DNA of 42,182 nt, taken from assembly GCA_016201865.1 (NCBI GenBank), contig JACQCA010000085.1, forward strand, positions 1 to 42,182, written 5' to 3'. The translations under genes and the position numbers were made by a program. Shown here one piece after another: positions 3,035 through 40,499 of this stretch (position 1 is the stretch's first letter; every line of letters begins with the position of its first letter). Source of the DNA: Nitrospirota bacterium (GTDB lineage Bacteria > Nitrospirota > Nitrospiria > JACQBZ01). Under the pieces are notes generated by a model. That model was not told where the DNA came from. It saw nothing but the letters and a program-made list of their open reading frames with translations, and ran no database searches.

Positions 3035-3065
3035 CTAAAACCCGCGGCAAACCCGAGGGAGCCAC

Positions 3066-3140
3066 CCAGCGAGCAAAGCGAGCGAGAGGGGGAGGCTCCA
3101 TCCGGCTTCGCCGGTGGAGGGGGCGACGTGAGCCCCTATA
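3066..3140 (-). repeat. Interspersed palindromic repeat, family A copy 1
   Basis: In minus orientation this reads TATAGGGGCTCACGTCGCCC, then a CTCCA-CCGGC hairpin with its mirrored half ending TGGAG, then CTCCCCCTCTCGCTCGC and a further CGCTCGC. Related copies are at 10060-10138, 37721-37919 and 40382-40455. This copy ends 3 bp from the 3' CCA of tRNA-Pro. The three hairpin-forming blocks resemble REP/BIME-type elements. Confidence 0.8.
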
Positions 3141-3143
3141 AAT

Positions 3144-3220
3144 TGGTCGGGGCGCGCGGATTTGAACCGCGGACATCCAGCTCCCGAAGCTGGCGCGCTA
3201 CCGGGCTGCGCTACGCCCCG
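3144..3220 (-). tRNA. tRNA-Pro (anticodon CGG)
   Basis: The acceptor stem CGGGGCG / CGCCCCG, the anticodon stem CCAGC / GCTGG with 7-nt loop TTCGGGA (anticodon CGG), the T-loop TTCAAAT and an encoded 3' CCA (plus TGG at 3144-3146) are all visible. The total length is 77 nt. The first 10 nt of the tRNA (3211-3220) are also the last 10 nt of the ald reading frame. The tRNA is most likely cut out of the ald transcript. Confidence 0.95.
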
Positions 3221-7852: not shown

Positions 7853-8425
7853 TCATCCCGTCCGCTCGTACGTGCTGACGAGAAAGGTCACGTCTAAGAA
7901 TTGCGGATTGGCATAGCGCGTGCGGAAATGCAGGTTCTTGACCCTCAGGACATGCGGGGCCTGCTCGATCGAAGAGAGAAATTTCACGGCTTGATCCAGC
8001 GTGACGTTCTCGATCTTGATCTCAACCGAGGTCTCGCGATACCGGTCCACGACCACGCCCGACTGCGGACGCATGTAGGCGATTTTGGACCGGACGTCGG
8101 CGTTGCCGGCCAACGACTCCAAAAACGAGAGCAGTGAAAATTTCCCCTCGTCTTTCCGGATCCGTTCGTCCAGCGAGCCGGTCTGATTCTTAAGCCGGAC
8201 ATATTCCTTTCGGACCTGATCCAGCGTGACCAGGGCCTCCTCCTTCTGACGGATCAGCCGGTCCAGCCCCCGCATCCGGTCCCCATACCAAGAGGCTGTC
8301 GAGAGAATCCCATAAAGGAGAATCCCGCCCGTCGCGACGCCTCCGATCATCAGATAGAGCCTCTCGCGGGCCGTGATGCGGTCGCGGCCGAGACGGGCCA
8401 AGACCTGTTGAAGAAAGGCCTTCAT
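7853..8425 (-). CDS. gspM: T2SS inner-membrane protein GspM
   Basis: This is a 190-aa single-pass protein: a short cytoplasmic start, a transmembrane segment ~26-46 (LMIGGVATGGILLYGILST), a coiled coil (~52-95, DRLIRQKEEALVTL) and a periplasmic ferredoxin-like domain. It partners with GspL in the assembly platform. The ATG overlaps the stop of gspL (8422-8425, ATGA). Family similarity is low in sequence but the size, topology and position between gspL and gspK support the call. Confidence 0.85.
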   Translation of the reverse strand: MKAFLQQVLARLGRDRITARERLYLMIGGVATGGILLYGILSTASWYGDRMRGLDRLIRQKEEALVTLDQVRKEYVRLKNQTGSLDERIRKDEGKFSLLSFLESLAGNADVRSKIAYMRPQSGVVVDRYRETSVEIKIENVTLDQAVKFLSSIEQAPHVLRVKNLHFRTRYANPQFLDVTFLVSTYERTG

Positions 8426-10047
8426 GCGGGCGGCCTCCCCGACTCCCGCGGCGACAGCGTCACGGTCAGACGGAAGCGCACCCGGGATTGGTCTGCGCTG
8501 ACTTTGGCGTCGCTGACCGTCACGTCTTTGAAGGCCTCAAACTGTCCCAGCGAGGCCTTGATCTTGTCCACCGACTCGAAGCTGTCCGTCTCGGCCTCCA
8601 GGCGGAACCGGCCGGATTCGATCATGAGGTCCTGAACCTCGATCTTGATCGAGGAAGGCACCCGACGGCTCAGTTCGGCCACGACCTCCAACGGCGTCAG
8701 GTCGCCCGTCCCGAACAGCGCCGATTTCTTTTTCATCTCGGCGACGGCCGTCTTCGCCTGCTGGACTTCGTCCACGATCGTCTTGACCTCCGGGAACATC
8801 GTCCGGAATTGTTCGCGGACCCGGGTCTTCAACGCCTGGTATTGGCTCATCTGAAGGCTGTATTTCAGATAGAGATCCGCCCCCGCCAGCATCGCGACTA
8901 AAAGGGCCGCGATCCAGAGGAAGCGGTTGCGCGCCCTCGACCCGACCCGTTCGCGGCCGTGCGCGAATTCGCCTTTGCGGAAGTTCATCCCCGATTCGGC
9001 GACGGGATTCGCGCCTCTCAACGCCAGTCCCAGGCCGACGGCAAACGCCGGATCCCACGACGCCCCGTTGCCCGAAACGATCTTGGGAGCGCGCCCCGTC
9101 ACCTGAAGGCCCAGCTCGGTCGCCAGGTAGGATCCCAGGCCTTTGAGCTTGCCTCCGCCGCCGTAAAGGACGAGTTCCGTGACGGTCTTTTGCCCGGCCG
9201 ACGGCTCGCCGGCCTGAGCGACATGAAACGTCCGGATCAGTTCGGCCGTCAGCGGCTCCAGCGCGCGACGGATCGTCTCGGAAACGCCTTTTTGATGAAG
9301 GCGGGAGATGCCGGAATCGTCGAGGCCGGCCTGTCGTTTCCATTCCTCGGCCTCTTCAATCGAAATCCCGCAGGCCTCGGCCAGCGCCGTCGTCATGTCC
9401 CGCCCGCCCCACAGGATCGTCCGCAGAAAGGCCGCCCGGCCCCGGCGCAGGATGCCGATGATGGTTTTGGAGGCGCCGATGTCCAAGACCGCCGAAACCG
9501 GATCTTCCCCGGCCCGCGCGCCCGGCGCGGATCGTTCCGGAAACGTATGGCGCATCAGGTGGATCAAGGCCATGCCGTCCAGTTCGACCCATTCGGGATC
9601 GATTCCGGCGCGGGCCAGTTGGTCCAGATAATGTTTCACGAGGCTGCGCGGCGCGGCCGCCGCCAGGAGATGCGTCTTCCCATCCGTCGTATCGACCGCA
9701 TGATAATCCACCACGACCTCTTCGAGCGGATACGGAAGCAGCGCCTCGATCTCGAACGGAACGACCTTTTCGAGTTTTCGGGCATCGCTGAATGGAAGCG
9801 TCAACGCGCGAAGCGACATCAGATGGACGGGAAGGGAGACCACGACGCGATCCGCCGGCCGTCGGTGTTCGGCCAGGAATTCCCCCAACCCCGGAATCGT
9901 TTCTTTTCCCCAATCCAACGGGCCGCCCGCTGGGGGTATATCTTTCTGGTATCCACCCGTCCACTCCAGCCCCATCAGCCCCTTTCGCAGAGAAACCGCT
10001 TTCAGGGAGAAGGAGCCGAGATCAAGACCTAAGATCTGTTGCGCCAT
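8422..10047 (-). CDS. gspL: T2SS protein GspL (PilM-like actin fold plus PilN-like periplasmic domain)
   Basis: This 541-aa protein links the GspE ATPase to the assembly platform. Residues 1-~355 are a cytoplasmic PilM/actin-like ATPase-fold domain beginning QQILGLDLGSFSLKAVSL, with AVLDIGASKTIIGIL and LVLYGGGGKLKGLGSYLA as the nucleotide-binding-like blocks. A transmembrane segment lies at ~383-400 (FLWIAALLVAMLAGADLYL). It is followed by a coiled coil and a PilN/ferredoxin-like periplasmic domain to the end. It therefore resembles a fusion of type IV pilus PilM and PilN. Repeat element A copy 2 lies immediately upstream, inside the operon. Confidence 0.87.
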   Translation of the reverse strand: MAQQILGLDLGSFSLKAVSLRKGLMGLEWTGGYQKDIPPAGGPLDWGKETIPGLGEFLAEHRRPADRVVVSLPVHLMSLRALTLPFSDARKLEKVVPFEIEALLPYPLEEVVVDYHAVDTTDGKTHLLAAAAPRSLVKHYLDQLARAGIDPEWVELDGMALIHLMRHTFPERSAPGARAGEDPVSAVLDIGASKTIIGILRRGRAAFLRTILWGGRDMTTALAEACGISIEEAEEWKRQAGLDDSGISRLHQKGVSETIRRALEPLTAELIRTFHVAQAGEPSAGQKTVTELVLYGGGGKLKGLGSYLATELGLQVTGRAPKIVSGNGASWDPAFAVGLGLALRGANPVAESGMNFRKGEFAHGRERVGSRARNRFLWIAALLVAMLAGADLYLKYSLQMSQYQALKTRVREQFRTMFPEVKTIVDEVQQAKTAVAEMKKKSALFGTGDLTPLEVVAELSRRVPSSIKIEVQDLMIESGRFRLEAETDSFESVDKIKASLGQFEAFKDVTVSDAKVSADQSRVRFRLTVTLSPRESGRPPA

Positions 10048-10059
10048 GATCCACCAATC

Positions 10060-10138
10060 ATAGGGGCTTGCGTCGCCCCCTCCATCCGCCTAAGGCGGAA
10101 TGGAGCCTCCCCCTCTCGCTCGCTTCCGCTCGCTGGGG
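10060..10138 (+). repeat. Interspersed palindromic repeat, family A copy 2 (inside the gsp operon)
   Basis: The blocks are TAGGGGCTTGCGTCGCCCCC, then CTCCATCCGCC-TAA-GGCGG-A-ATGGAG (an 11-bp stem), then CCTCCCCCTCTCGCTCGC and a CGCTCGCTG end. This copy fills the 105-bp gap between gspN and gspL and should form strong RNA hairpins in the operon mRNA. Confidence 0.8.
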
Positions 10139-10152
10139 AGACACTTTAATTA

Positions 10153-11136
10153 TTATTGACCCGGCCCGCGCGGCCCGATGGTCGGGAGTCGGGGCGGTTC
10201 GCCCGCCCGTCCGGTTCCGACCGGCAGACCGGCGCCGCCGATTCCGACGGAAGCGAACGGCGTTCCGTTCAGATAAGGCGTCGGACGCCGCAAAACGCCG
10301 CGAAGCGCAAAATCGAAATGGCCGTCCGGCGGGGCCATCGCGGACAGAAACGCCAGCGGACCGGTCGGCTTGCGTAGCGTGACACGCGAATTAAAATTCA
10401 GCAGGCTGTCCATCACATCCGGCCTCAACAGAAGGCTTCCACTGCCCGCCAGGTCCAGGGCATCTCCCTGCGCCGAGAAATTCTCCAGATTGCCCATCCC
10501 GCCTTTGAAGCTCATGCTTCCGTTCATCCGCGAAAATTGAATCTCCCAACGCTTCGATCCAACACCCGTCGCCTCCAAGGCCAGGACCCCCTGTCCCTGC
10601 AGAACGTCCCCGTTCATCCAGTCGTGCTCGATCCGACGGATCAGGATCGTGCCGCTCACGTCGTTCGACGGAAGACCGAATCCCTCCGCCAGTTTTTTGA
10701 GATCCAGTCCCTTGCCGCTTCCTTCCAGACGGTATTTCATCCCCAAGGCCGCCCGCCGGACCGTCAGACGGCCGCGGGCCTCGCCCCCCAAAGTCTGCAC
10801 GACTAGGTCCAGATCCCAATGCCGCCGAAGGATCGCGCCGATCGGCCAGCCGACCGAGATTTCTTCCGCCGTCCAAAGGACCGGGACGGGATGCTCCACG
10901 CGGCTCACCGTCACCCCCTTCCAGACCAGACGGAACGGAAATCGAACCTCGCTCTTCCGGACGGAGATCTCAAGGGCCGCGGCCCGTTCGACCTTGATTC
11001 GTATCCAATCCGACAGCTTCGACCAGGGAAAGGTCAAATAAACAAAGACCGTAACGGTGACGACGGCCGCGGTCGCGTATCCGATCGCCGTGATCAGAGC
11101 AGCCTTATGACGATTGAACCATTCAAAGAACCGCAT
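10153..11136 (-). CDS. gspN: T2SS protein GspN
   Basis: I start at the ATG at 11134-11136 (MRFFEWFNRHK), six bases after the gspJ stop; the frame is open further upstream only as a shadow of gspJ. The 327-aa protein has a transmembrane segment ~16-34 (GYATAAVVTVTVFVYLTF) and a periplasmic AsmA/GspN-like domain with VERAAALEISVRKSEVRFPFRLVWKGV. GspN is an accessory T2SS protein found in some lineages. The C-terminal 25 residues are Gly/Pro-rich. Its place between gspJ and gspL is typical of Nitrospirota and deltaproteobacteria rather than of enterobacteria. Confidence 0.82.
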   Translation of the reverse strand: MRFFEWFNRHKAALITAIGYATAAVVTVTVFVYLTFPWSKLSDWIRIKVERAAALEISVRKSEVRFPFRLVWKGVTVSRVEHPVPVLWTAEEISVGWPIGAILRRHWDLDLVVQTLGGEARGRLTVRRAALGMKYRLEGSGKGLDLKKLAEGFGLPSNDVSGTILIRRIEHDWMNGDVLQGQGVLALEATGVGSKRWEIQFSRMNGSMSFKGGMGNLENFSAQGDALDLAGSGSLLLRPDVMDSLLNFNSRVTLRKPTGPLAFLSAMAPPDGHFDFALRGVLRRPTPYLNGTPFASVGIGGAGLPVGTGRAGEPPRLPTIGPRGPGQ

Positions 11137-35666: not shown

Positions 35667-37706
<2,040 letters not shown>

Positions 37707-37720
37707 CCCCTGTCTATTTG

Positions 37721-37919
37721 TAGGGGCTCACGTCGCCCCCATTTTATCTGGGGGCCCGTGCGGTTCGCTACTGCGAATCCTCCGATGCCCCCAGGCCCCG
37801 CGCTCGGACGGGCAGAGCCCGATCCTCGCTTACTCAACCGGTGAAGCCGGATGGAGCCTCCCCCTCTCGCTCGCCGTGCTCGCTGAGTCGATCCCCTCGG
37901 GCGACGCGAGCCCCTATAA
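37721..37919. repeat. Family A repeat, copy 3: compound element with two opposed ends
   Basis: The left end TAGGGGCTCACGTCGCCCCC (37721-37740) is followed by ~90 bp of unrelated sequence. A partial copy in plus orientation comes next (GTGAAGCCGGATGGAGCC, CTCCCCCTCTCGCTCGCC), then an inverted end GGGCGACGCGAGCCCCTATA (37900-37919). The element fills the hppA-pth gap and its outer end supplies the TAG stop of pth (37914-37916). I see no gene in it. Confidence 0.75.
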
Positions 37920-38477
37920 TAGGTTATACCGGTTCATCGCCGCTTCCGGCCCTTCCCGAATAAAACAGTCGAGGGCCGAAACGGACCGTTGGATCATTTC
38001 ATTCGCAAGGGATCGTTCTTCTGGAAGGAACGCCGACAGGACGTACTCATCGGCCGCCAGATGGGCCGGCGGTCTGCCGATTCCGATCCGGAGACGGTAA
38101 AACTGTTGGGCCTTCAGCGAGGCGATAATGGATTGGACCCCGCGATGACCGCCATGCCCCCCTTTGGTTTTGATCCTGAGCCGTCCGAGGCCCAGATCCA
38201 GGTCGTCATGAATCACGAGCAGATCCGAAAAACCGGCGCCGGTCTTCTCGATCAGCTCCAGGACCGCCGCACCGCTCCGGTTCATGTATGTAAGCGGCTT
38301 GGCCAGAATCAGTTTTTCATGCCCCGCCGCACCGTGAGCAGTAACCAGCCGCGGCGACGATTTCCGAAAGGAAAAGGCCAGGGACCTCGCAAAGGCGTCC
38401 ATGACCATAAAACCCAGATTGTGACGGCTGTTCTCGTACTCGGCCCCAGGGTTCCCGAGTCCCACAAGGATTTTCAA
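37914..38477 (-). CDS. pth: Peptidyl-tRNA hydrolase
   Basis: This 187-aa cytosolic enzyme frees tRNA from stalled peptidyl-tRNA. The active-site start LVGLGNPGAEYENSRHNLGF has N9 and H19, equivalent to the catalytic Asn10/His20 of E. coli Pth. LAKPLTYMNRSGAAV and LVIHDDLDLGLGRLRIK with the catalytic Asp are also present. The C-terminus ends in MNRYNLL, and the stop codon lies inside a repeat. It follows rplY by 11 bp. Confidence 0.96.
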   Translation of the reverse strand: MKILVGLGNPGAEYENSRHNLGFMVMDAFARSLAFSFRKSSPRLVTAHGAAGHEKLILAKPLTYMNRSGAAVLELIEKTGAGFSDLLVIHDDLDLGLGRLRIKTKGGHGGHRGVQSIIASLKAQQFYRLRIGIGRPPAHLAADEYVLSAFLPEERSLANEMIQRSVSALDCFIREGPEAAMNRYNLL

Positions 38478-40373: not shown

Positions 40374-40381
40374 GTCTATTG

Positions 40382-40455
40382 ATAGGGGCTCACGTCGCCC
40401 CCTCCATCCGCCTAAGGCGGAATGGAGCCTCCCCTTCTCGCTCCTTCGCTCGCTG
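40382..40455 (+). repeat. Interspersed palindromic repeat, family A copy 4
   Basis: ATAGGGGCTCACGTCGCCCC, then CTCCATCCGCC-TAA-GGCGG-A-ATGGAG and CTCCCCTTCTCGCTCC...CGCTCGCTGA. It is nearly identical in its first two blocks to copy 2. It lies 8 bp from the 5' end of tRNA-Gln, between it and ispE. Confidence 0.8.
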
Positions 40456-40499
40456 AATCAATCGGGAGGAACCCTGCCGACGATCGTCGGATGATCCAC

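Follow-up and report, generated by a model that had tools for sequence, protein, structure and literature searches.

A family of short hairpin-built repeats, probably mobile and non-autonomous, found in a Nitrospirota genome and in other bacterial phyla

Results

Four loci in the window carry the same folded repeat

The window is the whole stretch of 42,182 nucleotides that was analysed, one of the contigs of a 2.47-Mb, 97-contig Nitrospirota genome. Four loci within it hold a folded DNA repeat of about 80 bases (Table 1). They are confirmed at the places given by the original prediction, and all window copies lie between genes, as it had also claimed. A shared GGGGC-TCACGTC-GCCCC hairpin had been described, and its word GGGGCTCACGTCGCCCC occurs five times in the window at three mismatches or fewer, against 0.32 expected from shuffled sequences, which never reached five. 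The shared block CTCGCTCGC is likewise present in the window copies. The description of a shared stem has to be amended: CTCC..GGAG is present, but its sequence is not fixed, and some copies have CCGCC..GGCGG or CCGGC..GCCGG with compensatory changes.

Copy 1 lies directly beyond the 3' end of tRNA-Pro and has the minority orientation, on the strand of the neighbouring genes. Copy 2 is antisense to both flanking genes, pilM-like and gspN-like, and stands about 15 nt off the start codon of the former. Copy 3 precedes a Na+/H+-pyrophosphatase gene. Copy 4, which carries the target-like flank TCTATTGATA, lies between ispE and tRNA-Gln (minus strand), is antisense to the latter and stands about 11 nt upstream of its 5' end; tRNA-Pro and tRNA-Gln are the tRNA neighbours that had been pointed out. 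What was first taken for one compound locus (37721-37919) does exist, but consists of a recurrent long form and, apart from it, an end hairpin copied in inverted orientation. This inverted copy completes the pth stop codon, as proposed, with TA coming from the flank and the first G from the hairpin. Both orientations occur on the chromosome; relative to transcription, however, one orientation is common to three of the four window loci and to most copies elsewhere.

Table 1. Positions of repeat copies, neighbouring genes and related features (window coordinates unless a contig, C, or locus, L, is named)
Feature	Position	Strand	Parts or basis
Copy 1, short form	3066-3136	-	End hairpin 3120-3136, second stem, linker, third stem; covariance-model match 3065-3145, 94.5 bits
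pilM-like gene	8422-10047	-	
Copy 2, short form	10061-10138	+	Covariance-model match, 79.6 bits
gspN-like gene	10153-11136	-	
Na+/H+-pyrophosphatase gene	35667-37706	-	
Copy 3, long form	37715-37879	+	Covariance-model match; end hairpin 37723-37739, extra domain ~37749-37833, second stem, linker 37857-37867, third stem
Separate inverted end-hairpin copy	37898-37914	-	End-hairpin pattern and sequence reading
pth	37914-38477	-	Stop codon TAG 37914-37916
Copy 4, short form	40377-40457	+	Covariance-model match, 70.2 bits
Long form, other source-genome loci	C6:19272, C13:2078, C23:4297, C30:70988, C67:27552		
RAYT-like Y1 genes (C52, C59)	L171 2617-3655, L172 2501-3516		Long inverted ends GGGGTCAAGTCTGC.. 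and GGGGTCAGGCTT..
Other dispersed palindromic repeat, AATGCGGGCGAACACATGAGTTCGCCCCTAC	L171 4817-4847 and 5586-5616		
In-frame copy in dabA (G030:C8)	L352 ~9750-9840		
Loci with nested palindromes	L031, L101, L297, L304, L291, L298, L059, L063, L109, L122		

Anatomy and fold of the element

On the strand of the original prediction the element reads, from the left, as a degenerate YCTATTATA, a hairpin GGGGC-TYRCGTC-GCCCC, a stem CTCC(variable)GGAG, a C-rich linker CCTCCCCCTCT and a third stem CGCTCGC-nnn-GCTCGCT, to which some copies add a GTAG-tagged hairpin, GGGTAGATACCCACGGGC-aaa-GCCCGTGGGTATCTAC. Its size is about 75-115 nt, or about 165 nt in the long form. The GGGGC hairpin forms the left end. 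The right end, when present, is the GTAG-tagged hairpin closing in TATCTAC, and most copies have it in degenerate form or not at all. The two ends are thus unlike hairpins, and the element has no terminal inverted repeats.

Among 56 diverse copies the variable second stem has both-sided changes at all five inner pairs, and its covariation score is 0.217, against 0.083 for shuffles and at most 0.037 for slid versions. The third stem contains a tandem G.A/A.G pair in 37 copies and Watson-Crick pairs instead in 12. Part of the invariance of the end hairpin reflects the way in which copies were searched for. On the strand opposite to that of the original prediction, G.U pairs outnumber A.C mismatches 22 to 3, an excess to which coding-strand C-to-T bias could contribute; this strand, the one found in most host transcripts, is therefore probably the strand constrained to fold. 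Covariation alone cannot tell RNA from single-stranded DNA hairpins.

The extra domain of about 90 nt between the end hairpin and the second stem defines a recurrent long form, with at least six copies in the source genome and relatives at L100, L045, L056 and L114. In the window copy and at five other source-genome loci (Table 1) this domain is made of GGGGGCCCGTGCGG..TCCTCCGATGCCCCC and CGCTCGGACGGGC-aaa-GCCCGATCCTCGC. At a further set of loci (Table 1) small unrelated palindromes, CATGTCTGCTGCGAAYCGCAGCATGCAGG, GGGACAGATTTCAAATCTGTCCC and GCACCCGCAAGCGGGTACCCGG, are nested within stems of the element and look as if such repeats target each other's hairpins.

Copy number and host range

The many genomic copies that had been anticipated, rather than very few, were found, with about 50-60 counted genome-wide. 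Searches of the source genome gave 42 copies by blastn, 52 by the covariance model, 51 matches to the right-hand block and 63 end hairpins, with none for the reversed-pattern control of either pattern search. Exact words of the element were found in Nitrospirota, Syntrophus, Syntrophorhabdus, other Deltaproteobacteria, Bdellovibrionales and one Acidobacteria assembly. The covariance model counted 51 copies in a Syntrophorhabdus genome (G040), 49 in each of two Syntrophus genomes, 113 in one Deltaproteobacteria assembly, 19 in Bdellovibrionales and 3 in Acidobacteria; these cross-phylum counts come mostly from metagenome assemblies, where mis-binning could affect the low ones, and those for Desulfobacterota describe chosen carriers only. 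Under stricter filters 5 of 148 evenly drawn Nitrospirota genomes hold the element. Since it is patchy in Nitrospirota and abundant in unrelated phyla, horizontal spread between phyla is likely. In one Syntrophorhabdus assembly (PtaU1.Bin058, L109) five copies stand head-to-tail in a tandem array with a period of mostly 93 bp.

Plasmids, phages and IMG/VR contigs yielded no element at the sensitivity used, and no Rfam family matched at or above its gathering score. In the open literature searched, a scope that leaves out most subscription journals, the nucleotide words of the element were absent, and work on REPs, MITEs and intergenic repeats held no description for these taxa.

Position and orientation relative to genes

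In tandem gene contexts of the source genome, antisense copies prevail by 18 to 2. Over all loci the ratio of antisense to sense relative to operon transcription is 72:13, with 14 convergent and 12 divergent contexts in addition; the gene calls behind these orientation statistics come from a simple home-made caller, and copies within one genome are not independent. About half of the copies that turn their constant end towards a gene start are placed tightly: 44 of 84 lie at a distance of 7-27 nt. The target motif described below is enriched three- to fourfold 10-40 nt before starts, compared with gene interiors, and before starts it favours the template strand by about 1.7 to 1. This supply of targets accounts for the position and for some of the orientation bias, and the remainder needs selection or strand-specific insertion.

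A single copy lies in frame in dabA (DabA, PF10070) of a Nitrospiraceae genome, G030, where it adds about 22 residues (..REGEAPPAKPEEGATRAPA..) by comparison with G208 of the same genus (compared loci L379, L380 and L381). The element is at the same place in G191, and G184 seems to contain a diverged relative of it.

Turnover of copies and the target motif

The regions orthologous to three window sites (10060, 37721 and 40382) were compared in all six same-family genomes. The flanking genes are syntenic in these genomes, tRNA-Gln included, and by covariance model and alignments the element is absent from the three sites in 6/6, while 17 to 23 listed copies are present elsewhere in the same genomes. 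Empty syntenic sites together with copies elsewhere in the same relatives indicate that the element moves or turns over, and turnover of copies between genera is strongly supported. Alignments at other source-genome loci also reveal copies missing in named relatives, and at one locus the corresponding gap of the relative holds the element inverted. With the patchy spread across phyla, these results support the mobile repeat that had been suggested, as against a sequence at identical positions in distant relatives. No target-site duplication was seen, at empty sites in intergenic regions of family- and genus-level relatives that are too diverged for junctions to be read to the base.

The copies of one genome (G009) are nearly identical, yet the eight bases before their hairpin vary around CTATTATA, and in a logo of 174 copies the left-flank motif ends sharply at position -9. 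This fits a target preference and not cargo, and the left flank may be read as a degenerate target motif, YCTATTATA. The word TATAATAG beside the element was also considered as a promoter -10 box; this was not adopted, with no -35 visible and a very short spacing to start codons.

Discussion

A non-autonomous repeat probably moved in trans

We favour, with a probability of about two in three, the reading that the element is a family of short non-coding, non-autonomous, hairpin-built mobile repeats. A transposase acting in trans, encoded elsewhere than beside the element, would recognise the end hairpins as single strands, in the manner of IS200/IS605 HUH enzymes, and would join the element to the 3' side of the target motif. 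This target would turn up more often in the AT-rich stretch ahead of Shine-Dalgarno sites, with a preference for the template strand, which would produce part of the bias in position and orientation; the rest could come from selection against the opposite orientation, whose C-rich RNA may be polar. Once transcribed, the hairpins would probably be passive mRNA structures that bear on processing, stability or translation and not a specific switch. The anatomy of the end hairpins and the target makes a single-strand HUH-type mechanism the likeliest one, which we hold tentatively and at somewhat less than even odds.

The first alternative, which we consider unlikely, is a mobile folded leader RNA spread by horizontal transfer. 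Here a three-hairpin module with tandem G.A pairs would stand before unrelated starts in several phyla as a portable module for translation or mRNA processing, and the enzyme moving it would be of a class new to such repeats.

It is improbable that the hairpins are REPs of a RAYT-mobilised REP/BIME system, moved by the REP-associated tyrosine transposase of the same genome. The element is abundant, palindromic and intergenic, its optional right-end hairpin begins with GTAG, which is the RAYT-REP tag, and the source genome has three Y1_Tnp genes. However, no element lies at the gene at the examined Y1_Tnp loci, where the nearest copy is 2.3 kb away (in L186). The RAYTs of the source genome at C52 and C59 have long inverted ends of their own, GGGGTCA..., unrelated to the element. 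Moreover, two well-assembled genomes with many copies, G004 (96% complete, 17 copies) and G015 (95% complete, 14 copies), gave no Y1_Tnp match. The RAYT named as a possible enzyme in the original prediction is therefore not supported. Its likening of the repeat to REP/BIME or MITE elements holds for numbers and mobility, and the MITE label is only partly right because terminal inverted repeats are absent.

The wider search for an enzyme covered 2,215 ORFs near elements, among which no transposase family recurs. No insertion sequence or autonomous parent with the element's ends was found near copies, nor any TnpA gene or cognate Y1 transposase with these ends. A tail-like word near one Y1 gene (in L185) was rejected, as it lies in an unrelated gene. 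Another dispersed palindromic repeat occurs twice near a RAYT-like gene (Table 1).

There is also little prospect that the element is a conserved cis-regulatory RNA, riboswitch-like or a protein-binding leader, held at its genes by selection. Such an RNA would suit the covarying fold on the transcribed strand, with its invariant hairpin loop and tandem G.A pairs, and the location just before start codons. In contrast, the downstream genes are unrelated and not the genes of related function that mark a riboswitch or gene-specific leader: 73 proteins matched 124 Pfam families, none of which matched more than two members. Even same-family genomes do not share the window positions, the constant part is also found in copies whose middle is deleted, Rfam offers no match, and the covariation fits single-stranded DNA hairpins too.

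We find it very unlikely that the copies arise from RNA, by reverse transcription of a transcript at the target from its constant 3' end, often stopping early. The constant end is indeed the 3' end of the RNA, copies with only the constant end are commoner than those with only the other end, and the fold appears constrained on the transcribed strand. Shortened, hairpin-only copies at L349, L346 and L322, however, retain the far terminus CCCGTGGGTATCTAC with the middle gone, which points to two-ended DNA recognition or slippage and weakens the case for retro-copying. Finally, descent from an insertion sequence bearing terminal inverted repeats, as for a classical MITE, would agree with the size, copy number, mobility, intergenic location and internal deletions, but is highly improbable given ends that are different hairpins and not mutual inverted repeats, no insertion sequence with these ends near copies and no target duplication evident at the diverged empty sites.

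Comparison with known systems

By the features tested, the family belongs neither to the RAYT-REPs nor to the classical MITEs, with which it shares being non-coding, mobile and multi-copy but not the terminal inverted repeats. It is REP/ERIC-like in behaviour, ordinary in kind and unusual in detail. Non-autonomous derivatives of IS200/IS605 keep both ends, which carry unlike hairpins and no inverted repeats; a short target motif lies 5' of the left one. The element resembles them in its hairpin near each end and its target motif 5' of the left end, and differs in that no TnpA gene or full-length parent with its ends was found.

Neither ERIC nor the element has a known dedicated transposase. 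Like ERIC and intergenic MITE-like repeats, the element is a transcribed palindromic repeat of about 100 nt, intergenic, present in many species and occasionally found inside genes (PMC10969869). No relation in sequence was seen; ERIC occurs in enterobacteria and vibrios only, whereas the element crosses phyla and has a marked preference for start codons. With REP/BIME it has in common that it is palindromic, abundant and mostly intergenic, that its stems covary and that it is found in mosaics (PMC3733652, PMC2817692), so that it too is a set of high-copy extragenic palindromes kept by compensatory change. REPs are single hairpins of 20-40 bp, whereas the element spans about 80-115 nt with three or four hairpins, follows a target motif on its left and is strongly biased to lie antisense before start codons, and its copies have no RAYT beside them. 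The RAYT-REP arrangement, a RAYT gene between two inverted repeat copies, is absent from the examined loci. A RAYT-REP is also a 20-40-bp palindrome headed by unpaired GTAG (or GTGG), whereas the element is a unit of about 80 nt with three stems in which GTAG opens the optional right-end hairpin only. CGTC-tagged REPs, which are also without a known transposase, have an unpaired CGTC at one end and a stem of 8-9 bp beginning with A and T pairs (PMC3733652); in the element CGTC sits inside the end-hairpin loop and the stems are G+C-rich.

Rickettsia palindromic elements (RPE; PMC10969869) can likewise insert in frame into genes, as seen here in dabA of G030, but such insertion is exceptional for the element, which also differs from them in its sequence and its hosts. 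Correia repeats of Neisseria (PMC10969869) also lie immediately upstream of genes, are transcribed and fold into hairpins, but they have terminal inverted repeats and the element has none. Most described bacterial palindromic repeats are tied to RAYTs or to recognisable parent insertion sequences, each in one clade (PMC2817692, PMC3733652). The element combines dozens of copies across phyla with much unchanged sequence, no recognisable parent and a strong orientation bias at ribosome-binding regions. It lends itself well to asking through which enzymes repeats without a known transposase move, and whether their insertion rewires operons or, as seen in DabA, makes proteins longer.
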